NCBI GenBank assembly: GCA_025457815.1
Contig: JALOTQ010000005.1
Span: 1-36,629 of the forward strand
Origin: Thermoplasmata archaeon
GTDB lineage: Archaea; Thermoplasmatota; Thermoplasmata; UBA10834
DNA length: 36,629 nucleotides
Direction of reading: 5' to 3'
In this document: one piece after another, positions 11,243 through 25,400 of the stretch
Layout of the letters: every line of letters starts with the position of its first letter
Position numbering within the stretch: the first letter of the stretch is position 1
Notes under the pieces: model-generated
What the model saw: only the letters and a program-made list of their open reading frames with translations
Database searches by the model: none
What the model was told of the DNA's origin: nothing
Program-made: the position numbers and the translations under genes

Positions 11243-14200
11243 TCAGATCTTCGACTCGCACGTGGCCGCAAGCACCGGCTCGTATTGTACTGGCGTGTCA
11301 AGCTGCGGGAGTGGTATGATTGGCGGCGGTTCCTGCAGGCGCGGGACCAGCGGCGTGCCGACGAAGACGTGCTCCACATGTGAGGCCTCGACGCCGAACA
11401 CGTTCCTGACCGTGAGCTCCACCTCGTAAGCCCCCGCTGCCGCGTACGCATGCGTCACCTGCCATCCGGTGGCATAAGTGCCGTCCCCAAAGCTCCAGAT
11501 GTAGTCCGTTATCCCGACCTCGTCGTACGACCCGTAGGCATAGAATGTGACCTGCTGGTCGACGAACGGCAGAATGGGAGAGTGCCGGAACTCGGCAACT
11601 GGCACCGACGCGACTACGATAGTGACCACGTCCTCATCCACGAGACCGCTCTCGTCGATGACTGTCAGCTCGACCTCGTAGGTGCCCGCGTACTGGTACA
11701 CGTGCCAGACCGCCTGGCCGGCCGCCACGGCGCCGTCCCCGAACTGCCATATCCAGGTGACGATCGATCCGTCCTGGTCGATGGAGAACGAGCCGTCGAA
11801 CATGACCAGCTCCCCCACGAGCGGCCTCGGCGGCGAGTACGATGCCACGGCAAGCGGAGGCATTGGCTCGGTGACCACGAAGAGCAGCTCCGTCCAACCG
11901 TATCCTCCCGATTCATCCGTCACGAACAGCGCGACAGTGTGGACTCCGGCGGAGACGAACACGTGGCTGACGACCGGCCCAGAGGCGGTCGTCCCGTCGC
12001 TGAAGTTCCACCAGTAGCCCATGATCGCGCTGCCATCCGGGTCGTATGAGGCTGCCCCGTCGAACGTGACGGCGGAGCCTACCGAGCCCGAATCCGTCGA
12101 TGGAATGATAACGGCGACCGGCGCCTCGTTCACGACAACGGTGATGTTCACGGACGAGTATAGCCCGCTGTTGTCCACGGCCGTCAGGATGACCTCGTAT
12201 GTCCCCCCTTCGGAGTAATAGTACCAGAGGTCCCACGACGTCGTCCAGATGTAGCCGTCGTCACCCATGTCCCACTCGAAGTGGTCTATCCACCCGTCGG
12301 GGTCATAAGACCCGCTCGCGCTGAAGCAAATCGTCTCCCAGGGGACAGGATCCCATGGGAAGTAGCTTGCGTACACGATCGGAGGCTGGCCGGAGCCGAC
12401 ATGTATGACCACATAAGTGCTGTTCGCCCATCCGAAGTTGTCCCAAACCGTAAGCCAGACGACATGATCCCCGGCGGTCCAGAAGGCGTATGAGGTCGAT
12501 TCCCCCCACACGGACCAGCCGTCGTCGAACTGCCAGAACCAATCGACTATCCACCCGTCGGGATCGTATGACAGGTTCCCACCGAAGTACACGCTCTGCC
12601 CGACAGATGCGTAGGTTGGCCAAGCGTCGATGACGGCCACTGGCGATTGGTTCGTGGACTCGAAGATCTCAAGGTAAGCGTACGCGATTGCGCTTCCCCC
12701 CATGTCGTCCACTGCGGTCAAGGACACCTCGTACATGCCCGCGGCGGCGTAGACATGGCTCACCCAGCCGCCGTCCACCACCGTGCCGTCTCCGAGGTCC
12801 CATGTCATCTCGACGATGTAGCCATCGGGATCGTACGATGAGTATCCGTTGAAGTAGACCCACTGCCCGACGAACGGATCCCCCCAGGTGCTTATCAGGG
12901 GGACCGGCAGCTGGTTCGGGAACGGGCCGAGTGACAGCGTGAGGTTGTACAGCATTATCTCGCCCCAATGGTCGTAGGATTCGACCCTTGCCCAGTACTG
13001 CCCCGCTGGAAGGTTCATCGTTATCCTCGACCAGTAGTAGTAATTGTAGTCGTCGTTGAATGCTATCTCGTACAGTGGGACCCCCGCAGAGTCATACAGC
13101 CAGAGCATCGTGTCGACCCAATCGCTGAATGGCCCGCAGGTCTCAATCCGAACGTCCGACTGGGATGCGATGCTGAACGTGACCCAATCAACATCGAGGC
13201 CGCCGTCGTGTATGCTGTGGAACTGGGTTTCGCCGACAGCAATCGTGTTCGCTTCCGTCCAGACATCGTCACTCTCGTACGAGTCCGGCTCCGCAGGGTA
13301 AATCACCGAGAACTCCAAGGTCAGGTTGCCCGTGGCACCGTCATCGTCCATCACCGTCAGGGTGATGTAGTAGATGCCGGCCGAAGCGAAGACGTGTTCC
13401 ACTATCATTCCGGAGGCGGTCGACCCATCCCCGAAGTACCAGAACCAGTCCACGATGTACCCATCGGGGTCCCATGAATATGAGCCGTTGAAGATGGCAG
13501 GAACGCCGACCATGGGCTGCGAATCTGGATACCAGTCTGCATATGGGGGCTGGTTCGGGTAGTACCCAGCGGACACGATGAGGTAGTAGAGCGGTATGTC
13601 CATTGCCTGGGCGAACGAAGTCACCTTGACGTAGTAGTATCCTGCGCTGGGCAGAGCGGTCTGGATCACAGACCAAGTTCCGTTGGCGTCATCGCTGTAT
13701 GCGATCGCGCTGTACGGGACGCCTGAGGAATCGAACAGCCACAGCTCCGTGTCGAAGTACATGCCCCAGCCTCCGAAGGTCTCCACGCGCACATCCGTGG
13801 GCCCGTCGATGTAGAACATCGCCCAGTCGACATCGAGGCCACCGTCGTGTATCGAGTGCGTCTGCGCCTGGCCGAGAGTCAGCCAACTCGCGTAGTTGTA
13901 TTCGTTGTCCGGTTCGTATGCATCGGGAACCACCGAGACAGCGGTCTGTAAGAATTCGTCCCAGAGACAATCAGAAGCGAAATCGAGATCGTCGTACGAC
14001 GCATAGTATCCAGACGGCGGATAGTATATCGAAACTCCGTGCGCCTGTGCGTGGTAGTCGCCGTGCGCCTCAGCTATCACCGCCTCATCCAGTGCTAACA
14101 TCAAATCCATGCTCGCGTTGCGCAGGCTGCAGTCGGGCAACCTGGAGGCCAGCTCGTTCGCGAAGTCGTAGAGATCGGCATAGTCCCAGCCGAACATCTC

Positions 14201-17200
14201 AGTCGCCCAACGCGCGTCGGAGATCTGCATGCTGTAGTTCTCGAGCTCCAACATCAGCTCGGCCGCGAACGCGTCGACGGCAGAGAACACGCCTGCCATC
14301 CCCGTCATGGACACGGCGGACATCTCGTCGAAGCCCAAGGTTCCGAAGTACTCGATGAATCTCTGGACCATGACAGCCCCGAGATCGACCGCATTCATGC
14401 CGGGCGTCGATAGGAGGTCGTACATGATCGTGTCGTATGGGAAGCCCTCCCACGCGACCAGCTCCTCCGAGGCGACCATGACGTCCATGTACTCGTGGAA
14501 CTCATATGCGACCTCGACCATGCCCATGAGGCACGCGTCGAAGCCCACGAGGTTCATCCGCGCGCCGGTCGATGAATAGACCGTGGCCATCGCCAGCTCA
14601 AGCTCGTCCAGCGTCAGGCTGTCTCCGAAGCTCGTGTCATCCCAACAGACCGCGCCGTCCCAACCACCGCCGTGGTCCCACAGGATGAGCGCGTAGTTGT
14701 CCGCTGGATAGAGGTTGACACCCCATGTGACGAAGTCGGCAAGGGTCGTCCAGTCGCCCATGTTCGCTTCACCTATGTCCTCGAGGGCGCTGGCCGCATA
14801 CGGCTCGGTTCCCCATTCGACCAGGAACCTCTTGGTCGAGGTCCAGTCTCCGTAGCTGTAATCGCCGCCCGAGATCCTGTCGAACTGGACGAGTATGTTG
14901 ACGTCCACGCTCGACCCGACCGTGGCCATCTCCTGGAAGTCCCATATCCCGGCCGTCTCGAGGTTGTTGTCGGCGTCCATGTAGACCATGAACGTCCAGC
15001 TCGAGGCTCCTGTGCTGAGCTCCAGGCTGAGATAGTATGTCGGTATCTCATAGGACATGTTGACGGACCAGACCAGGACGTAGTAGGTGCCTGGATCGAG
15101 CGTCGCCCTGATCATCGCCCAATAGTGGCCTCCGGAGTTGTCGTCGGAAGCGATGGGCGTGACAGGCACGCCCGCGGAGTCATAGAGCTCCATCATCGTA
15201 TCTGTCCACTGCCCAAGTGGCCCCGATGTCCGGATCCTCAAGGTCGTCTGCTCGGACAAGGTGAACGTGGCCCAATCGACATCCAGTCCGCCATCGTGTA
15301 TGCTTCTGAGCTGCGACTCCCCGACGGCGATCATCTTCGCAAGATCATAGGAATCGTCGGGCTCGTACAGGTCGGGCTCCGCGGGCATGCATACCGGCAC
15401 GTAGGCGTCAGCCCACGACCAATCCCCGTCATCGTCCATCACGCCCAATTGAACCCAGAACTGGCCTGCCTCGCTGAAGGTGTGCATCACCACGGGCTCA
15501 GACGAGGTCTCGTTGCTGTCGGAGAAGTACCAGTAGTACTGCACGATGTATCCGTCAACATCGTAGGAACCCGAGCCGTCGAAGAGAATCGGGACTCCGA
15601 CCGTTGGCGTGCCCAGCCAGACGAACTGGGCAACTGGAGGTATGTTCGGCCCTGGGCCAATGTCGAGCGCAAGGTAGTACTCGGCAATGTCCATCGTCGA
15701 ATATGGCCGGACCATGGCGTAGTATACGCCTGGATCCAGGTAGATCTCTATGCGCGAGTACAGATTGCCTCCAGAGTCGTCGTCGTACGCGATGTGGCTG
15801 TATGGCACATTGTAGGAATCGTAGAGGTAGATCATCGTGTCGTGGTAGGTGCTGATGGTTCCGTACGTGTAGATCGCAGCCCACGCGGACTCGTTGATTG
15901 AGAACCAGACCCAGTCCACGTCGGTGCCGGAGTTATGGATGCTGTGCAGCTGCGACTCCCCTGGCGATATTGGGGTGGCATCCATGTAGAAGTCGTCCGG
16001 CTCGTAGGCATCGGCATCCCCTCCCCCAGAGACCTCTACAGGGTATGTCACGTAGTCGCCGAAGCCCATGTTGTCGACGATCGATAGCGTGACAAGGAAG
16101 GTTCCCGGGCTGTAGAAGGAGTACCATACGTACGGACCGATGCCGTACCCGCCGCCGTCTCCGAAGTACCACTGGTAGGCCACGATGTAGCCGTCGTAGT
16201 CGTACGACAGGCTGCCGTCGAAGTAGATAGACTCACCCACCGCGGGGTTCGTCGGGTTCCAGTAGAACTCCGCCACTGGCTCCCCGGTGACATCGAGGAC
16301 CTCGACGGACATTGTCGAGGACGAACTGTCGCCCTCGTCGTCGGTCACCGTGACCGTGGCGAGGTACGAGCCTGCAGCGGAGTAGTAGTGCACCGCAGAT
16401 GAGTTCGTTGTGTAATCCGACATTGCGTCTCCGAAGTCCCAGACATAGCTCGAGATCTCGCCGCCGTCCACATCGACCGCGTCGACGGTGAAGGTGACCG
16501 GCGATGTAAGGGATGTCGGGTTCGGCCAGCAATCGAAGGAGTATATGACCGGCGGCCCCGCGACCGCCACGGATGTCCACGCAACGCCGAACTCGCCCAC
16601 GGAATCCGTAGCGCGGAGGTTGACCGAATACATGCCCGGTTCCGCAAAGACATGCCTCACGCGGGCCCCCGTGCCCGTGGTGCCGTCTCCGAAGTTCCAT
16701 TCGAAGGTGTAGGGCTTGTCGCCGCCGGAGACCGTTCCTCTGAACGAGAACTCTGCCGGGTTGCTGTTCGAAACGCGGTACGTGATTTCAGCCACAAGGG
16801 TGGGGACGCTCGTGTCGATCATCCCGAACCATGCCTGGAAACCCATCGAGATGTCGTAGTTGTCCACGGAGGCGTCCGGATCCGAAACCGTTAGTGTCAC
16901 GCTGGACGCCGCTGGCCAAATAGGCTGCCATGTCACAGTGTCGACAGACCAGTAGTTCTCAAGAGGCGTGACCTGCACGCCCGGGATGGGCAATCCGACA
17001 ATGTTCACCGGACCGTACGACCCTCCAGCAATCACTAAGCCGCCAGTGGGAACGGAAACGACGTCGTTGAACAGAAGCTGCCCGCCGGTGGGCTCCTGAG
17101 GATAGTAAGTGGCATCGAGGACGGCGCCTGACTGGTCGACCTGGATGATCGAAGGTCCGTCGGTGCCATTTGACCTGTCATCGACCACGCCTATAGCATA

Positions 17201-18094
17201 CAATGTCCCGTCCGGCTGAGGCACCAGACATGTCTGGTCCTGATACAGCAACGGATTGCCGATGAGCTCCGCCCAGACGTGCTCGTACGCAGCCGAGAGC
17301 TTGAGCATCAGGACCTGGCCTTCCTGGTAGGCGGAGCCTAGGAGGTATATGTTCCCGTCCTCTCCCCGGGCGATGTCCCACGAATACTCGTAGGTGTACG
17401 GTATGCTGAAGAGCCTCTGCGTGATTATGGACCCGACCGAGTCGAATACGATGAGCCCGACGTCTGTGCCGTCGTTCCTGTCCATGAACGCGTACAGGTT
17501 GCCCGACGTGTCGAAGGTCGCTCCCCACGGATCGGCCGCAAACAAGCCCTCGCTCTTGGCGGCCCATCTGAGTGACCCGTCGTCGTTCACGACCACGAAC
17601 ATGCCTGTCCATCGAGAGTCATGTCCTGCCATCGCGAACGCGCCGATCTCCGGGCTGTACACTAGCCTCACGGTCTGCATGTACTCGCCAACCGAATATG
17701 CGTAGGCGAGGGTACCGTCCGTGTATATCTTGGCGTAGAACCCCATCTCGCCGGACCAGTCGGAGTATTCGCCTCCGACATAGACGTCACCTATCGGGCT
17801 GACAGCAATGTCGGTTATTGTAGTTCCGGAACCAATCTCGAGAATGCGGTCCCAGACGAGGCCCCCGCTCGGGTCGTACTTGGCTACGAACGCCTTCGTC
17901 AGGCCGGAAACCGGGTCGACGGACGGGCCGGCGATGTAGATATTGCCGAACAGGTCGGCGTCCACGGTCGATGCGAAGTCAGAAGCCGACATTCCCCATG
18001 TGTGCCCGTACGAGATCGTCACGGAGGACGAACCGGGCAGCACAGCGCACAGCATCGCTAACGCAATCACTGAAGCTATGAGTGATCTCCTCAC
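11243..18094 (-). CDS. Giant secreted multidomain protein: N-terminal propeller-like region, about 11 PKD domains, 4 PPC domains, central C11 (clostripain-like) peptidase
   Basis: GTG start with signal peptide (MRRSLIASVIALAMLCAVLPGSSS); repeated SYDPDGYIVxxxWxFGDG...HVFxxAGxYxVxLTVxDxxG (PKD); four DxYEPDD...SIHDGGLDVDWxxF (PPC); ILWDHGGGW and VGFDACLMG (C11 His and Cys). Confidence 0.92.
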   Translation of the reverse strand: MRRSLIASVIALAMLCAVLPGSSSVTISYGHTWGMSASDFASTVDADLFGNIYIAGPSVDPVSGLTKAFVAKYDPSGGLVWDRILEIGSGTTITDIAVSPIGDVYVGGEYSDWSGEMGFYAKIYTDGTLAYAYSVGEYMQTVRLVYSPEIGAFAMAGHDSRWTGMFVVVNDDGSLRWAAKSEGLFAADPWGATFDTSGNLYAFMDRNDGTDVGLIVFDSVGSIITQRLFSIPYTYEYSWDIARGEDGNIYLLGSAYQEGQVLMLKLSAAYEHVWAELIGNPLLYQDQTCLVPQPDGTLYAIGVVDDRSNGTDGPSIIQVDQSGAVLDATYYPQEPTGGQLLFNDVVSVPTGGLVIAGGSYGPVNIVGLPIPGVQVTPLENYWSVDTVTWQPIWPAASSVTLTVSDPDASVDNYDISMGFQAWFGMIDTSVPTLVAEITYRVSNSNPAEFSFRGTVSGGDKPYTFEWNFGDGTTGTGARVRHVFAEPGMYSVNLRATDSVGEFGVAWTSVAVAGPPVIYSFDCWPNPTSLTSPVTFTVDAVDVDGGEISSYVWDFGDAMSDYTTNSSAVHYYSAAGSYLATVTVTDDEGDSSSSTMSVEVLDVTGEPVAEFYWNPTNPAVGESIYFDGSLSYDYDGYIVAYQWYFGDGGGYGIGPYVWYSFYSPGTFLVTLSIVDNMGFGDYVTYPVEVSGGGDADAYEPDDFYMDATPISPGESQLHSIHNSGTDVDWVWFSINESAWAAIYTYGTISTYHDTMIYLYDSYNVPYSHIAYDDDSGGNLYSRIEIYLDPGVYYAMVRPYSTMDIAEYYLALDIGPGPNIPPVAQFVWLGTPTVGVPILFDGSGSYDVDGYIVQYYWYFSDSNETSSEPVVMHTFSEAGQFWVQLGVMDDDGDWSWADAYVPVCMPAEPDLYEPDDSYDLAKMIAVGESQLRSIHDGGLDVDWATFTLSEQTTLRIRTSGPLGQWTDTMMELYDSAGVPVTPIASDDNSGGHYWAMIRATLDPGTYYVLVWSVNMSYEIPTYYLSLELSTGASSWTFMVYMDADNNLETAGIWDFQEMATVGSSVDVNILVQFDRISGGDYSYGDWTSTKRFLVEWGTEPYAASALEDIGEANMGDWTTLADFVTWGVNLYPADNYALILWDHGGGWDGAVCWDDTSFGDSLTLDELELAMATVYSSTGARMNLVGFDACLMGMVEVAYEFHEYMDVMVASEELVAWEGFPYDTIMYDLLSTPGMNAVDLGAVMVQRFIEYFGTLGFDEMSAVSMTGMAGVFSAVDAFAAELMLELENYSMQISDARWATEMFGWDYADLYDFANELASRLPDCSLRNASMDLMLALDEAVIAEAHGDYHAQAHGVSIYYPPSGYYASYDDLDFASDCLWDEFLQTAVSVVPDAYEPDNEYNYASWLTLGQAQTHSIHDGGLDVDWAMFYIDGPTDVRVETFGGWGMYFDTELWLFDSSGVPYSAIAYSDDANGTWSVIQTALPSAGYYYVKVTSFAQAMDIPLYYLIVSAGYYPNQPPYADWYPDSQPMVGVPAIFNGSYSWDPDGYIVDWFWYFGDGSTASGMIVEHVFASAGIYYITLTVMDDDGATGNLTLEFSVIYPAEPDSYESDDVWTEANTIAVGETQFHSIHDGGLDVDWVTFSIASQSDVRIETCGPFSDWVDTMLWLYDSAGVPLYEIAFNDDYNYYYWSRITMNLPAGQYWARVESYDHWGEIMLYNLTLSLGPFPNQLPVPLISTWGDPFVGQWVYFNGYSSYDPDGYIVEMTWDLGDGTVVDGGWVSHVYAAAGMYEVSLTAVDDMGGSAIAYAYLEIFESTNQSPVAVIDAWPTYASVGQSVYFGGNLSYDPDGWIVDWFWQFDDGWSVWGESTSYAFWTAGDHVVWLTVWDNFGWANSTYVVIHVGSGQPPIVYASYFPWDPVPWETICFSASGSYDPDGWIDHFEWDMGDDGYIWTTSWDLWYYYSEGGTYEVILTAVDNSGLYSSVNITVVVNEAPVAVIIPSTDSGSVGSAVTFDGAASYDPDGSAIMGYWWNFSDGTTASGPVVSHVFVSAGVHTVALFVTDESGGYGWTELLFVVTEPMPPLAVASYSPPRPLVGELVMFDGSFSIDQDGSIVTWIWQFGDGAVAAGQAVWHVYQYAGTYEVELTVIDESGLVDEDVVTIVVASVPVAEFRHSPILPFVDQQVTFYAYGSYDEVGITDYIWSFGDGTYATGWQVTHAYAAAGAYEVELTVRNVFGVEASHVEHVFVGTPLVPRLQEPPPIIPLPQLDTPVQYEPVLAATCESKI
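13940..15006 (-). other. Clostripain-like (peptidase C11) domain inside the giant protein
   Basis: SSWTFMVYMDADNNLETAGIWDFQEMATVGSSVDVNILVQFDR...ALILWDHGGGWDGAVCWDDTS...MNLVGFDACLMGMVEVAYEF...DVMVASEELVAWEGFPYD. Confidence 0.88.
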
Positions 18095-18302: not shown

Positions 18303-21300
18303 ATGGCGCGATTCCCGGATCACATGGACTCGAGTAAGTCAGGCGAAGCATCGACATCACTAGTTCCGCTCGGCGAATCTGCCGGCAAAGCGTCGGTCGT
18401 TGGAGGAAAGGCGGCAAACCTTGGGACGTTGATCTCGGCGGGCATCGCTGTTCCCCAAGGGGTCGTCGTTCCAACTGAAGCTTATCTGAGATTCCTGCGA
18501 GACAGCAGTCTCCAGCAGAGAATCACGACCCTGCTCGAGAAGGTGGACTACTCAGACGAGAGGTCCCTGAACGAATGCTCGCGCACAATCCGTGGCATGA
18601 TCACAGGGGTGGAACTAAATCCTGGGCTCTCGACCAGCATCGAGGTGGCGCTCGAAGAACTGGATAAGGACGCGACGTGGGCCGTGAGATCCTCTGCCAT
18701 AGCCGAAGACCTCGCAGAATCGTCATTCGCTGGTCAGCAGGACACCTTCCTGGGCATCCGAGCTGGAGACGTTCCCGACCATGTCAGGAAATGCTGGGCT
18801 TCATACTGGAACGCCAGGGCGATCAAGTACAGGCACGACGCGGGATTTCGCCGAGACGCGGAGGGTATGGCAGTCCTGATCCAGAAGATGGTAGATGCAA
18901 GCGTTTCTGGCATCCTCTTCACGACTGACCCTTTGACGGGGGACAAGAAGAAGATGATTGTCGAATCGACCCGGGGCCTCGGAGAGGCCGTCGCCTCCGG
19001 ACAAGTCATCCCCGACAGGTTCACCATCAGCAAGGACACAATCGAGGTAGTAGACAGGCGGCTCAGCGAGAGCCTGGAGCCCACTCGAACAGGGGCTTCG
19101 CTGAACGACGGCACTCTGAGATCTCTGGGCGAACTCGGATTGCGCATCGAGCGGCTCTTCGGAGCACCCCAAGACATCGAGTGGGCGGTCGAGGACGATG
19201 TCATCTTCATACTCCAGTCGAGGCCGATCACCACCCTGGGGTCGGACTCCCAGACGCTCTGGACAAGGGCCTACGGTGACGAATACTGGGCGGATGTCAC
19301 ATCTCCGCTGTTCTACTCGCTGCTGGGAGACTACCTCACGCAATATGTCAACCACGAGGGGTCAAGGATACTCGGATACACTGGCATTGTGGGCAAGGAG
19401 CTGCTGAGGGTGCACAAAGGACATGTCTACTTCAACACCGACGTCCTGGAGGAGGTTTTCAGCTACAACCCGAGGTTCTCGAGGACGAAAGAGCTCCTGA
19501 ACTACTTCCCCGTGAAGGACCAGCAAAGGATTGCGAACATCCCGACGAGAATGCTGAGGAGAATCTGGTCTGAGGTTCGAGTCATGTTCATCGACCCTGA
19601 TGGCATGATGATTCGGACCGACAAGGCGTACAACGCCTGGGCAGACCGGTTTCTGAAGGAGATGAGGCGGTTCGACGAGCTGGACCTCGGCAGACTCTCG
19701 ACCGAAGAGCTCGAGAGCGAGTTCTGGGACATGGAGAGAGCCTACCTCAAGCACTACAGGCTAATCAGGTACGGGATGGTCACCCACAGCATCGGCACGA
19801 ACCTCATAGTGAAGCGGTGGCTGACTGACTGGCTGGGCGACTCGAACGGCGTGCTGTACTCCAGGCTGATGTCCGGGCTGCCGGACAACAAGACCATCAA
19901 GACGAACATAGCGCTCGCGAAGCTTGCGAAGTTGGCCCGGGAAGACGACTCGGTCCTCGAGGCACTCCATTCAGAATCATCGCATGAGTTCCTCGCGAGG
20001 CTCAAGACCGACAAGAATCTGAACGAGTTCGGGAAGGAGCTGGGTTCCTTCTTGTCGGAGTATGGGCATAGGTCTCACACGCGGGAAATCTACTTCCCGC
20101 GTTGGGTCGACGATCCGTCTCTGGTCATAGACGTCGTGAAGGCCCTTGTCTCGTCCGAGCGGCTCTACCTGGAGGAGCTAGAGAAGGCGAAGGAGGAGGA
20201 CAGGATCAGGGCGGAAGAGGAGGTGCTCTTCAGGATCTCCCGGCAGAAGCTCGGGTTCGTCCGGAAGAGAGTCTTCAAGATCGTTCTGAGGTTTGCCCAG
20301 ACTTACCTGATGTTCAGAGAGAATCAGAGATTTTACCTCGACCATCAGATAATGCGCCAGAGAAGGCTGTTCATGGAGTACTCAAGGAGGTTCGTGGCGT
20401 CTGGAGCGTTGCAGAAGCCCGACGACATATTCTTCCTGAGCAAGGAGGAGGTATTCGGAATTGCAGGAGGTCGCGCAAAGGTCGACCGCGAGACTATCGC
20501 CATGCGCCGCAAGGAGTTCGAGGACTATCGCAGCATACTGCCTCCCAAGTTCGTCCAAGGCGACCGGGAGTTCGACGACACCGTCGTCAAACTCGACGGG
20601 AGCCTCAGAATCACAGGCACTTCGGCCAGCCCGGGCACATTCACGGGTAAGGTCCGAGTCGTGGACTCGATCGAACACCTAGCACTGGTCCAGCAGAACG
20701 AGATACTGGTGACCACCAATACCGATCCAGGATGGACTGCGGTGTTCTCGAAGCTCGGAGGGCTGGTGACAGAGACGGGAGGTATGCTCTCGCACGGAGC
20801 CGTGGTTTCGAGGGAGTACGGCATACCTGCGGTCACGGCTGTAACCGGCGCGACTTCGCTCCTAAAGACGGGCCAGATTGTAACGCTGGACGGGGGAGAA
20901 GGGGTTGTCTACATCGAAAGAGGGGTGCGGGCGAAGGACTCTGACATAATCCACGAGTTCGGTGACCACATCGACTGGAACGAGAGTTACTATTTCAACT
21001 TCTACGACCAGAGGAACGCCATCTGCGGCTTCATGCGCATCGGCCTCAAACCCAACAGGAACGAAAAGAGCATGTTCTGCTTCTTCATGATGCCGGATGG
21101 CGAAGTGATAGGGGGGAGGGAGCAGGAGAGCTTCAGGAACGCAGAGCTCAGGGTCAGGGGGCTGCGATACGAGAAGGTCGTCCCGGAAAGGACCTGGAGG
21201 CTGCTCTTCACAGGCACGATGCTGAAGTCGTCCGGACGGGAGTCGGTCGCGAGCGAGGTGTTCTTCAATCTCGAGTTCGAAGGTATGAACAAGATCTTCG

Positions 21301-21848
21301 ATTACAGAGAGAGCGTGCCTCCAGAGAAGGTCCAGATGTCGCGCGTGGCCGCGGCAGAGCACATGGAGCAGTTCGGCCGCATCACCGGCAAGCTCGTCAT
21401 CGATGGCAGGGAATACGCCATCGAAGGGCTCGGGGAGAGGGACCATTCATGGGGGGTCAGAGACTGGATCGCCCCAACGATGTGGGTCTGGCTGACCGCG
21501 CAGTTCGGAGAGGACTGTGCGTTCAACCTGACCAAACTGCTCGTGAACGAAGGTGAGGTGGACGCGGGATTCATCCACATCGATGGGGAGAACAAGGCGA
21601 TCGTGCGAGCCGAGATTCAGACGGACTTCGAGCCCGATGGTGCGCCAAGGTTTCTGAAGCTGGTCCTGCATGACAAGGGAGGGGAGGAACATCTCATCTC
21701 CGGCTCCGTCATTATGGGAACGAAGCTCCCGTTCGCGGGACCGGACGGCAGGAGCCTCGCGGTGATGCACGAGACGCTTTCAAGATACGAGTACAGGGGA
21801 ATGACGGGCTACGGAATCGCGGAGTATCTGACGAGGATGAAGGAGTAG
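18303..21848 (+). CDS. Rifampicin-phosphotransferase-like/PEP-utilizing dikinase fused to a C-terminal lipocalin (AttH/CrtC/DUF7064-like) domain
   Basis: VGGKAANLG, WAVRSSAIAEDLAESSFAGQQDTFLG, GILFTTDP, ESTRGLGEAVASGQVIPD, PQDIEWAVEDDVIFILQSRPIT (PPDK N-domain); YGHRSHTREIYFPRWVDDP and RENQRFYLDHQIMRQRRLFMEYSRRF...PDDIFFLSKEEV (Rph-type middle); TGGMLSHGAVVSREYGIPAV (phospho-His swivel). Confidence 0.88.
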   Translation: MARFPDHMDSSKSGEASTSLVPLGESAGKASVVGGKAANLGTLISAGIAVPQGVVVPTEAYLRFLRDSSLQQRITTLLEKVDYSDERSLNECSRTIRGMITGVELNPGLSTSIEVALEELDKDATWAVRSSAIAEDLAESSFAGQQDTFLGIRAGDVPDHVRKCWASYWNARAIKYRHDAGFRRDAEGMAVLIQKMVDASVSGILFTTDPLTGDKKKMIVESTRGLGEAVASGQVIPDRFTISKDTIEVVDRRLSESLEPTRTGASLNDGTLRSLGELGLRIERLFGAPQDIEWAVEDDVIFILQSRPITTLGSDSQTLWTRAYGDEYWADVTSPLFYSLLGDYLTQYVNHEGSRILGYTGIVGKELLRVHKGHVYFNTDVLEEVFSYNPRFSRTKELLNYFPVKDQQRIANIPTRMLRRIWSEVRVMFIDPDGMMIRTDKAYNAWADRFLKEMRRFDELDLGRLSTEELESEFWDMERAYLKHYRLIRYGMVTHSIGTNLIVKRWLTDWLGDSNGVLYSRLMSGLPDNKTIKTNIALAKLAKLAREDDSVLEALHSESSHEFLARLKTDKNLNEFGKELGSFLSEYGHRSHTREIYFPRWVDDPSLVIDVVKALVSSERLYLEELEKAKEEDRIRAEEEVLFRISRQKLGFVRKRVFKIVLRFAQTYLMFRENQRFYLDHQIMRQRRLFMEYSRRFVASGALQKPDDIFFLSKEEVFGIAGGRAKVDRETIAMRRKEFEDYRSILPPKFVQGDREFDDTVVKLDGSLRITGTSASPGTFTGKVRVVDSIEHLALVQQNEILVTTNTDPGWTAVFSKLGGLVTETGGMLSHGAVVSREYGIPAVTAVTGATSLLKTGQIVTLDGGEGVVYIERGVRAKDSDIIHEFGDHIDWNESYYFNFYDQRNAICGFMRIGLKPNRNEKSMFCFFMMPDGEVIGGREQESFRNAELRVRGLRYEKVVPERTWRLLFTGTMLKSSGRESVASEVFFNLEFEGMNKIFDYRESVPPEKVQMSRVAAAEHMEQFGRITGKLVIDGREYAIEGLGERDHSWGVRDWIAPTMWVWLTAQFGEDCAFNLTKLLVNEGEVDAGFIHIDGENKAIVRAEIQTDFEPDGAPRFLKLVLHDKGGEEHLISGSVIMGTKLPFAGPDGRSLAVMHETLSRYEYRGMTGYGIAEYLTRMKE
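20930..21845 (+). other. Lipocalin/CrtC-like C-terminal domain of the dikinase fusion
   Basis: About 300 residues after the His domain with EGLGERDHSWGVRDWIAPTMWVWLTAQF, resembling the G-x-RDHSWG-x-R motif of AttH/CrtC/DUF7064-type proteins. Confidence 0.6.
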
Positions 21849-21885
21849 GGCCTGAGCATCAGGACGTGGCCGAAGGGGAGATGAG

Positions 21886-22647
21886 ATGGAAGAGGACAGG
21901 CCGTTGTCGGACATGCCGAGGGAGGCGACGCGTATTGTGGACCGCGCGCGCGACCGCGGTGTCCAGCTCAGGCTGATGGGAGGGCTGGCTGTCAGGATGC
22001 ACTGCAGCAACCCTGACTTCTGCGAGAGGAAGTACTCTGACATCGACCTCATAGGCTTGAGCTCCCAGGGGGAGATGATCGAGGCAGTGTTCCGGGACCT
22101 CGGCTACGAACCCGACAAGGAGTTCAACGTCCTACACGGCACTCAGCGACTCAAGTACGAGGATCACTTCAACAACAGGCACGCAGAGGTGTTCCTCGAC
22201 AAGTTCCGCATGGATCAGACGCTCGATTTCCGGGGAAGGCTCGAGATCCATCCGTACACGATATCCCTCAGCGACCTATTCATCACCAAGATCCAGGTCG
22301 TGAAGATGGATGAGAAGGACTTCCACGACCTGTTCTCGCTCCTGAGGGAGAACAAGATAGGGGTGGACGACCGCGAGGGCGTGATAAACGCGCGCTACGT
22401 GGCCCAGATGTGCGCGCACGACTGGGGGCTGTATCATACCGTGCTCAGGAATCTCGACAGGCTCACTGAGTTCTACGACCACTTCAAGCTGGACCAACGG
22501 GAGCGAGATTCCATGGACCGGAAGATATGGATAATCAGGCTGATGATCATCGAGGAGCCGAAAGGGCCCATCTGGAAGGCCAGGGACCGTGTTGGCGAGA
22601 GGCTCCCGTATTTCGATGAGGTCGAGAGGGAGGGTGGGGAGGACTAG
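21886..22647 (+). CDS. Nucleotidyltransferase-fold protein (AbiEii/MNT-like)
   Basis: QLRLMGGLAVRMHC...KYSDIDLIGLSSQGEMIEAVFRDLGY (G-G then D-x-D NTase signature); GGGGAG just upstream of ATG; 37 bp after the dikinase stop. Confidence 0.75.
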   Translation: MEEDRPLSDMPREATRIVDRARDRGVQLRLMGGLAVRMHCSNPDFCERKYSDIDLIGLSSQGEMIEAVFRDLGYEPDKEFNVLHGTQRLKYEDHFNNRHAEVFLDKFRMDQTLDFRGRLEIHPYTISLSDLFITKIQVVKMDEKDFHDLFSLLRENKIGVDDREGVINARYVAQMCAHDWGLYHTVLRNLDRLTEFYDHFKLDQRERDSMDRKIWIIRLMIIEEPKGPIWKARDRVGERLPYFDEVEREGGED

Positions 22648-25400
22648 GCCGAGGCCCTCTTCGCGGAATTGAGGTTCTCCAGCGCCAACGCGTATGCGTG
22701 TTTGTCACCGGCGGCATCCGCAAGGCGCATCGCCTCCTGGTAATGCCTCGATGCAGCCGCAGAATCTCCTCTCTTCTCTTCGACGTTCCCACTTCGGATA
22801 TGAACCGCGATCAGGCCTTCGCTACTGCCTGTGACGAGGAGGCGCTTCTCAGCCTCCCCGAGCGATTTCGCGGCGGCCTCGAGGTCTCCAGAATCCTCGC
22901 TGACAAGAGCACTCAGAAGGTCCCGCTTCGCCATAATGCCGGGGTCGTTCATCGTGTCCGCCATCGTCGCGAACCTGGAGATCTCGCGCTGCGCCTTCTT
23001 GAGATCGCCCTGGGCGCGCCACAGGTTCGTGAGGGTTTCGGAAAGAGCTATGTCGCCCACGTCATAGCTGCGGCCGGTCTGAAACAACCCTCTCCTTCGC
23101 CTGAGGGCCGGGTTCGTCAGGGCCTTCTCGCACAGCTCGATAGCCTCGGCGTACCTGCTCTGGCCGCCAAGCACGTGCGCGGACGACGCTAGAACTCTCT
23201 TGGAGTCGGCTATCTCCCCTGAGCGTCTGAAGGCCTCCCCGGACTCGCGCAGGACACTGGCCGCCTCCGCAAGCCGCAGCTGTCCTGCCATCAGGTCGCC
23301 CAGGTTCTCCAGGCCTCTGGCCTCTCCAGAATGATCGCGCACGACATGGGCCAGTTTTATTGACTCCTTGAGCTTGACCTCGGCGTCGCCAAGCCTACCC
23401 TGGTCCGAATCAAGCAGCGCGAGGTTGTTGAGGCAGGCCGCTTGCGCCTGCCGGTCCTCGGCCTTGGAAGCTAGGGAGAGGGCCTTGTCATAGGCTTCCC
23501 GCGCTCTTCCAAAGTCGCCCTTCCGCCTCTGCACGCCGCCGATGTTGATCCATTCCCTGGCCTGTCCTTCGCGGTCCCCCGAACTCTCGTAAATCCTGAG
23601 CGCCTTCTCGTGCGCCAGGAGCGAATCAGAGAATCTCTGAATCCTCGACTGCAGCTTCGCGACCGTCTCAAGGACCAAGGCACGCCTATCGGAGTCAACG
23701 TCGCCTCCGAGGAGCGAGAGGCTCTCCTCGAAGTCCGCCAGGGCAAGCTCGATCTTGCCCATCGACTCGTTCAGCTGGCCTCTCAGGAACAGGAGCTGCG
23801 CATGATCCCTCGCAGCGGTCCCGCCTCTCGGAATTCTGGATACCAGAAGAAGGGTTTCCTCCGGGAATTCCTTCGCGAGCTCCTGGGCCCCGCTCACCGC
23901 TGCCTTGCGGGCGCGCTCGAAGTCGCCGGCTTCGACACTGTGATATAGCATCTCGAGCTGCCACTCGACGCCGGAATGGGATTCGCAGTAGGCCGCGGCC
24001 GTCTTATGGAGAGCGGTCTTCCTGGTCTGGCTCATGTGAGATGAGAAGAAATCCCTGAGCAGGTCGTGGGTCCAGATACCGTCCTGCTGCTCCAGCACGA
24101 GGGCCTTCTGCCTCAGGCCGGCAACGATCTTGTAGTCGATGTCCTGGACGGCATCGACGCGAATCGGGTGGCGGAATATGGACAGGAGTTCCAGGAGGTT
24201 CTTCTCGACCTCTGGAAGGTGAGAGTAGACTTCCCGCTCGATGAAGTCCACGACGTCCCCTTTCGCTTGTCCCTGCGCACCTCTCGCCATGAGGTTGATG
24301 AGGAGAGGATGGCCATGGCTCTGGTCCACCACGCGACCCGTATCTGAGGCCGCCAGAGTCTGGGCCATGCGCCATGCGGAATCCCGGTCGAGTCCGGTCA
24401 GCTCGATCCCGAAGTTCCCGGGCATGGTCCGTGAGAAGAAATGCGGGACAGTGCGAGAGAGCAGGACGGCCTTGCACCCCTTCGAGGTCTTCACTGCCTC
24501 CAGAAGCATAGGGAGTACGGTGCTCTGCTGGCGGTCCAGCTTGTGGACGTCGTCGAGGAACATCACGAATCGCTGTCCCGCGAGATCAGAGACCATTGTC
24601 TGATAGATCTCTGAGGCGGATGCATTCCCCTTCGACCTGGAGGAGAGTGCGGTCCTGCCGCATGCGGACAAGAATTCGGACAACGCGAGAAGGAATGAAC
24701 CCTCCGTGTCCCACTCCCTGAATGAGTACCAGAACATCGACCTCTTTCCTGAGAGTTCGTCGAAGGCCTTAGAGGCGAATGTGCTCTTGCCAATGCCAGG
24801 CATTCCCCATACGAGCACCGCGGACACGTCGGAACCTTCCAGAGCGTCAAGGAGCGCCTTTCGTTCTGAGTCCCTTCCGAAGAAGCTCTCGACCTTCGGC
24901 TTGCCCTGCACCCGCTCGACGAAGACCTGGGCTGCCGGTTGCGGTGCAGGTCTGCCGAAATCGACCACTCTGACGACATCGTTCGAACGGGCAACGTCGA
25001 CGATCTCGACCAGTCCCGGGGGTGCCCCGGAGGAGGCGCCAATCCTCCTGATCGAATCCTCGATTGTCAGCTCCTGAGTGGCCCCGTCATGCTCGAGCAC
25101 GACCTTGCGCTTGAGCACGTCGTTCCGCATGCCCAGGGCCGCCAGGCGGCCCTTCTCGGTCAGGAAGTAGGCCCTCCGTCTCTTCGGGGCGCCGCGCACG
25201 TGCGCGAGCCGGTCGAACACCAAGCCTTCCTCCTGTAGGCCCGACAGGGCCCGCGAGGCAGCGTGGACCTGAATCTGCAGCCTGTTGGCGATGCCTTCCT
25301 GGCTCGCCCCGAGAGGCACTTCGGGGTCATCCCGGTACCTGTCCAAGTCCCAGAGGTGGAGCAACAAGCGCTCGTTCTGAGACAGCACCAGACGCGGCAT
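22644..25400 (-). CDS. STAND-family NTPase: N-terminal winged HTH, P-loop NTPase, C-terminal TPR array
   Basis: wHTH (ASQEGIANRLQIQVHAASRALSGLQEEGLV), Walker A VWGMPGIGKST, Walker B RFVMFLDDVHKL, then TPR-type helices (EWINIGGVQRRKGDFGRAREAYDKALSLA, ACLNNLALLDSDQGRLGDAEVKLKESIKLA, etc.). Confidence 0.88.
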   Translation of the reverse strand: MPRLVLSQNERLLLHLWDLDRYRDDPEVPLGASQEGIANRLQIQVHAASRALSGLQEEGLVFDRLAHVRGAPKRRRAYFLTEKGRLAALGMRNDVLKRKVVLEHDGATQELTIEDSIRRIGASSGAPPGLVEIVDVARSNDVVRVVDFGRPAPQPAAQVFVERVQGKPKVESFFGRDSERKALLDALEGSDVSAVLVWGMPGIGKSTFASKAFDELSGKRSMFWYSFREWDTEGSFLLALSEFLSACGRTALSSRSKGNASASEIYQTMVSDLAGQRFVMFLDDVHKLDRQQSTVLPMLLEAVKTSKGCKAVLLSRTVPHFFSRTMPGNFGIELTGLDRDSAWRMAQTLAASDTGRVVDQSHGHPLLINLMARGAQGQAKGDVVDFIEREVYSHLPEVEKNLLELLSIFRHPIRVDAVQDIDYKIVAGLRQKALVLEQQDGIWTHDLLRDFFSSHMSQTRKTALHKTAAAYCESHSGVEWQLEMLYHSVEAGDFERARKAAVSGAQELAKEFPEETLLLVSRIPRGGTAARDHAQLLFLRGQLNESMGKIELALADFEESLSLLGGDVDSDRRALVLETVAKLQSRIQRFSDSLLAHEKALRIYESSGDREGQAREWINIGGVQRRKGDFGRAREAYDKALSLASKAEDRQAQAACLNNLALLDSDQGRLGDAEVKLKESIKLAHVVRDHSGEARGLENLGDLMAGQLRLAEAASVLRESGEAFRRSGEIADSKRVLASSAHVLGGQSRYAEAIELCEKALTNPALRRRRGLFQTGRSYDVGDIALSETLTNLWRAQGDLKKAQREISRFATMADTMNDPGIMAKRDLLSALVSEDSGDLEAAAKSLGEAEKRLLVTGSSEGLIAVHIRSGNVEEKRGDSAAASRHYQEAMRLADAAGDKHAYALALENLNSAKRASA

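Follow-up and report, generated by a model that had tools for sequence, protein, structure and literature searches.

A candidate ATP-dependent dehydratase pairing a rifampin phosphotransferase-type dikinase with a 25-phosphosteroid lyase-like domain in Thermoplasmatota

Domain architecture of the fused gene

The window analysed here is the whole 36,629-nucleotide (nt) stretch of contig JALOTQ010000005.1 from a Thermoplasmata archaeon (assembly GCA_025457815.1). On its forward strand, at 18303..21848, lies a gene in which a dikinase is fused to a lyase-like domain. The reading frame runs uninterrupted from an ATG start at 18303 to a stop at 21848 and encodes 1181 amino acids (aa), and the same architecture was found at a second locus, L054. 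A Pfam scan placed an ATP-grasp domain (PPDK_N, E=7e-80) at residues 32-317 (18396..19253) and a phospho-His swivel, the phosphoenolpyruvate (PEP)-utilizers mobile domain (E=2e-24), at residues 797-867 (20691..20903). Both scored above the gathering cut-offs and both aligned with the rifampin phosphotransferase (RPH) RPH-Lm, which also located an Rph-type, substrate-binding middle region at residues about 320-780 (19260..20642). Residues 880-1181 (20940..21845) matched DUF7065 (PF23213, residues 880-1053, E=2e-19, 70.8 versus a gathering score of 27) and DUF7064 (PF23212, residues 1058-1177, E=2e-18, 67.4 versus 24.7). The scan found no C-terminal PEP/pyruvate-binding barrel, as the first-pass annotation had stated, and the His domain closes the dikinase part; there was also no match to an APH-type kinase domain or to the CrtC family profile. 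Because the linker at residues 874-881 (20922..20945) was of low confidence in the full-length structure model (pLDDT below 50), the tether between the lyase domain and the swivel domain is probably flexible. The fused gene is the sole full-length copy in its genome, with a PEP-synthase-like gene as the one other match.

The dikinase motifs quoted in the first-pass annotation are present in the open reading frame (ORF), and its proposal of an Rph-like small-molecule dikinase, as opposed to a PEP synthase, agreed with the structural search, in which RPH 5hv1 (E=2e-39) and 5fbs were the best whole-chain matches. The closest solved relatives by sequence were also rifampin phosphotransferases (5fbs, E=3e-97). 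In RPH-Lm, mutagenesis identified K22, R117, T136, R666 and E667 as required and H825 as the residue bearing the phosphate (PMC4844700). In the alignment, K22, R117 and T136 correspond to K36, R129 and T148 of the window's ATP-grasp domain, R666-E667 to R672-E673 of the middle region, and H825 to H831 of the swivel. Residues K36, R129, R672, E673 and H831 were invariant over 20 archaeal relatives, and T148 was replaced by Ser in some. Because the RPH residues reported as essential have counterparts here, the kinase part is probably an active dikinase that would convert ATP to AMP and Pi and transfer a phosphoryl group to a bound hydroxyl. The NCBIfam Rph equivalog NF041857 gave 423 bits against a cut-off of 999, and the PEP synthase model TIGR01418 gave 364.7 against 739.75. 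The top NCBIfam matches were PRK06241 models, and the PigC and RedH models scored 382-412 bits on the kinase part, under cut-off.

An AttH/CrtC/DUF7064-type fold had been suggested for the C-terminal domain. The DUF7065 and DUF7064 matches agree with this, as does the AlphaFold2 model of the domain, which is all-beta (pLDDT 93, pTM 0.91) and for which Foldseek returned AttH (NE1406, 2ich) and kievitone hydratase. Both ranked behind structures of 25-phosphosteroid lyase (25-PSL), an enzyme of phosphate elimination from a tertiary phosphoester, which took ranks 1-5 (E 3.5e-15 to 3.2e-14, TMq 0.70-0.73) and were followed by the pericyclases CghA, Fsa2 and Phm7 (E about 1e-9). When the domain was searched against the PDB as a single sequence, 25-PSL only was retrieved (E=0.014). 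A profile of 26 archaeal lyase domains retrieved 9fzn (E=3e-16) and 9g4c (3.5e-15), and no sequence matches other than 25-PSL; the homology covers the catalytic half. According to its entry description, 9g4c is 25-PSL with phosphate and the alkene product desmost-1,4-diene-3-one; the Asp of RDRSWGVR in 9fzn is Asn in the 9g4c sequence. D1047 of the window protein (domain residue D174), which lies inside the GERDHSWGVRDW motif, aligns with this Asp-to-Asn position of the product complex, and domain residues R173, D174, S176, G178 and R180 are invariant in 26/26 archaeal lyase domains. By analogy with the mutant 25-PSL complex, the Asp of the RDHSWG motif would be catalytic. Because the domain matches 25-PSL in sequence, in fold and at the active-site Asp, which is conserved, it is probably a phosphate-eliminating lyase related to 25-PSL, in place of the lipocalin proposed earlier that merely captures substrate or product. 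The Rv3169 family model NF053593 gave 67.7 bits against its curated cut-off of 150. Our literature search found no publication on the 25-PSL structure and no mention of DUF7064 or DUF7065, and the titles and abstracts of the Rv3169 papers listed name no function.

Pairing of the two genes in archaea and bacteria

The census covered 392 genomes of the phylum Thermoplasmatota, with dikinases counted by their middle domain at E<=1e-20. The lyase was present in 33/392 genomes and the dikinase in 34/392, with both in 31 (Fisher p=4e-40, a value that ignores relatedness), and the two genes were adjacent in 31/31 genomes with both. Relatives carry a dikinase gene of ~870 aa and then, on the same strand and typically with a 4 nt overlap, a lyase gene of ~306 aa; three distant loci (L052, L053, L084) show the reversed gene order with adjacency retained. 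As a rule the genes are separate and tightly coupled, and the fusion is the exception. At one locus of genome G308 (L040:6476-9578), an apparent frameshift divides the dikinase into two ORFs.

Bacterial relatives were drawn from the top matches as 17 plasmid loci, a non-random sample without a control set, and in 11/17 of these a DUF7064/7065 gene had an APH/EcKL- or PPDK-type kinase as its neighbour or no more than about 3.5 kb away. An APH-type kinase adjoins the DUF7065/7064 gene in Pseudonocardia, Mycobacterium branderi, Cupriavidus, Rhodococcus ruber, Methylobacterium, Novosphingobium and Sphingopyxis, and is near without adjoining in Sulfitobacter and Rhodococcus sp. USK10. On M. avium pP7a the gene is flanked by an ecdysteroid-kinase-like gene and a PEP-utilizing enzyme, the latter with no detected ATP-grasp, in a row that also has an LLM oxidoreductase (L071:3690-8680). 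In Rhodococcus sp. 008 pR8L1 (L076:1-2569), a DUF7065 gene is followed after 4 nt by a 527-aa PPDK_N + PEP-utilizer enzyme. This enzyme seemingly has no substrate domain in the middle, a part that the lipocalin-type protein might provide. These Rv3169/DUF7065-DUF7064 proteins of actinobacteria and proteobacteria belong to the same domain family as the window's lyase-like domain and often adjoin an APH-type kinase, but their partner is mostly APH/EcKL rather than a dikinase, and no clear fusion was seen in the loci. If its substrate is a phosphoester, one lyase family would be expected to pair with unrelated kinases, as seen here, and the bacterial pairing agrees with the known chemistry of 25-HSK and 25-PSL. 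Frequent bacterial neighbours were acyl-CoA dehydrogenases, AMP ligases and SDRs, a set that would fit terpenoid or steroid catabolism. A Nonomuraea DUF7064 ORF with a long N-terminal extension (L079) was set aside, as the extension matched nothing in Pfam and probably reflects a frame artefact of high-GC sequence.

The immediate neighbours of the archaeal pair include inositol monophosphatase, NAD kinase, fibrillarin, transporters and anthranilate synthase. They vary between families, lie mostly on the opposite strand, and were rejected as a guide to the substrate. A role in the mevalonate pathway was set aside, the pair being patchy and missing even in sister genomes. A link to methanogenesis was also rejected: McrA is present in four relatives with the pair, but the window's family lacks it and is therefore probably not methanogenic. 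Downstream of the fused gene, on the forward strand, is a nucleotidyltransferase-like gene (21886..22647; NTP_transf_5, under the gathering cut-off), which probably stands outside the mechanism. It is followed by an AAA/NB-ARC-like ATPase (22644-25400) that carries TPR repeats and matches a helix-turn-helix at its N-terminus; a similar protein occupies the same place in the sister species G414. Divergent from the fused gene, positions 11243-18094 encode a 2283-aa protein in which a signal-like N-terminus, PKD-like repeats and a clostripain-like stretch were recognized by eye.

Proposed reaction and alternative readings

In Sterolibacterium denitrificans, the 43 kDa kinase 25-HSK phosphorylates a tertiary C25 alcohol, yielding ADP, and elimination of the phosphate then gives an alkene (PMC8449060, PMC7411048). 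We infer that the window protein follows this two-step chemistry, its dikinase taking the kinase role. On the evidence of sequence, fold and gene pairing, we consider it reasonably likely that the fused protein is a single-chain ATP-dependent dehydratase, by which a hydrophobic alcohol would be phosphorylated and the phosphate eliminated to leave an alkene. As the conserved RPH residues suggest, the ATP-grasp domain would split ATP to AMP and Pi, phosphorylating H831 on the swivel, and the swivel would deliver the phosphoryl group to the alcohol in the Rph-type middle domain. By homology to 25-PSL, the lipocalin-fold lyase domain, tethered to the swivel, would then take over the phosphoester, and its RDHSWG Asp would aid phosphate elimination. 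Summed up, the steps would give alcohol + ATP -> alkene + AMP + 2 Pi. A hydrophobic alcohol is the most likely substrate, and the hydrophobic compound suggested in the first-pass annotation stays plausible. That the alcohol is tertiary and on an isoprenoid chain is a guess, favoured by the chemistry of related folds, since CrtC and kievitone hydratase work on tertiary prenyl carbons. A hydroxyarchaeol-type lipid was considered, and the literature search on it yielded nothing useful.

Several observations weigh against this reaction. Identity to 25-PSL is low, at 17-19%, and the superfamily includes hydratases and pericyclases. The full-length model has a pTM of 0.57, with interdomain placement poorly determined, and no conserved third gene pointing to a pathway was found among the neighbours. 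In addition, five genomes (G301, G295, G414, G403, G397) have the lyase without an adjacent dikinase. Of the four motifs inspected (G301, G414, G403, G397), those of G301, G414 and G397 were intact, so that the lyase may act without the dikinase. In G397 a dikinase relative is located elsewhere in the genome. In G414, a nucleotidyltransferase-like gene 78% identical to the window's adjoins the lyase (L081:6598-8373 compared with window 20922-22644), the lyase is just 45% identical to the window's, and the dikinase is missing (assembly 87% complete); this lyase has either evolved fast or been replaced. An APH-type kinase was tried as a substitute in the lyase-only genomes and rejected, a clear extra APH being found in G301 only and not adjacent to the lyase. 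G403 counts for the kinase-lyase reading: RYQTWG replaces RDHSWG in its orphan lyase (L082:7545-8480), with loss of the presumed catalytic Asp, and its genome has no dikinase, only a PEP-synthase-like gene.

The protein could also be a hydrophobic-metabolite phosphotransferase that releases a stable phosphorylated product, its lipocalin-like domain just binding or handing over substrate or product. The fold of its relatives does hold hydrophobic ligands, and the lipocalin could bind the substrate in Rhodococcus sp. 008, where a PPDK_N kinase without a middle domain adjoins the DUF7065 gene. The archaeal dikinases, however, retain the full Rph-type middle domain including R672-E673, the nearest solved relative of the C-terminal domain is a lyase sharing the motif Asp, and the invariant residues are concentrated in the Asp motif; we regard a phosphotransferase as unlikely. 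The phosphate might instead serve as a leaving group on an activated hydroxyl or carbonyl for bond formation or cyclisation, as in the prodigiosin ligases PigC and RedH and the lipocalin-fold pericyclases. The PigC and RedH scores on the kinase part and the position of CghA, Fsa2 and Phm7 as the next fold matches both speak for such a reaction, but 25-PSL is closer than the pericyclases (the sole PDB sequence match, with a fold E of about 1e-15 versus about 1e-9) and no biosynthetic cluster surrounds the pair, which makes it distinctly unlikely. It is highly improbable that the protein is a PEP synthase variant of a kind long known, with a C-terminal extension of no consequence. Generic annotation would say so, given the PRK06241 models at the top of NCBIfam, but the barrel is missing, the TIGR01418 score is under its cut-off (364.7 versus 739.75), the whole chain matches RPH ahead of PEPS in structure, and the genome carries another PEP-synthase-like gene.

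The fusion itself might be an error of sequencing or assembly that merged two overlapping genes, in which case the pairing would stand regardless. With 4-nt overlaps elsewhere, a one-base error could fuse the genes, and the window comes from a draft assembly of 154 contigs with 88% completeness. However, the second fused gene, at L054 (JAOUEZ010000001.1), has the identical 1181-aa architecture with another junction sequence and is 56% identical to the window in the kinase part and 50% in the lyase part. The two kinases form a moderately supported pair in the tree (94/91), a grouping that fits one fusion event. The fusion is thus not an evident assembly error, and we consider such an error improbable.

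Relation to known systems and significance

The window protein shares with RPH-Lm (5fbs/5hv1) the ATP-grasp domain, middle domain, C-terminal His swivel and essential residues, but adds the C-terminal lyase domain and falls far under the NCBIfam Rph cut-off. The 4-hydroxyacetophenone dikinase HpeHI is another RPH-type small-molecule dikinase, but it is split into two subunits, takes phenol substrates and has no lyase (PMC12167813). S. denitrificans 25-HSK with 25-PSL (9fzn, 9g2i, 9g4c) shares the logic of a kinase followed by a phosphate-eliminating lyase, and 25-PSL shares the lyase fold, the RDxSWGxR motif and a C-terminal GYGxxE motif. That system belongs to another domain of life, and its kinase is an ADP-forming phosphotransferase with a ternary-complex mechanism, whereas the window kinase is an Rph/PPDK-type dikinase; the 2021 paper saw no lyase candidate near 25-HSK, whereas here the genes are fused or adjacent. 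Kievitone hydratase is of the same fold superfamily as the C-terminal domain, and it and the carotenoid 1,2-hydratase CrtC form tertiary alcohols on prenyl ends by adding water, but both are direct hydratases without phosphorylation. The folds of class III lanthipeptide synthetases are unrelated to those of the window protein. As an analogy only, these enzymes combine a kinase and a phospho-Ser/Thr lyase in one chain for a net ATP-dependent dehydration, with peptides as substrates (PMC10604976).

Both enzyme types are known; their combination, archaeal spread and fusion were not found in the literature searched. Unactivated tertiary alcohols are hard to dehydrate, and the sole well-described kinase/lyase route that we found is the one by which a betaproteobacterium degrades the cholesterol side chain anaerobically. 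To our knowledge, the archaea with the pair are not known as sterol degraders. We tentatively suggest, with less confidence than for the fused protein itself, that a widespread archaeal ATP-dependent dehydratase system of RPH-type dikinase and 25-PSL-type lyase strips isoprenoid lipids, or metabolites related to them, of tertiary hydroxyls. Its genes would overlap in Methanomassiliicoccales and other Thermoplasmatota and be fused in the window's lineage, and in bacteria the same lyase family would recruit different, unrelated kinases. If this is true, genes likely to be labelled PEP synthase would be corrected, the coupling of ATP to alkene formation would be directly testable in a one-chain enzyme, DUF7065/DUF7064 beside a dikinase would gain a function, and kinase/lyase chemistry would be spread across archaea.

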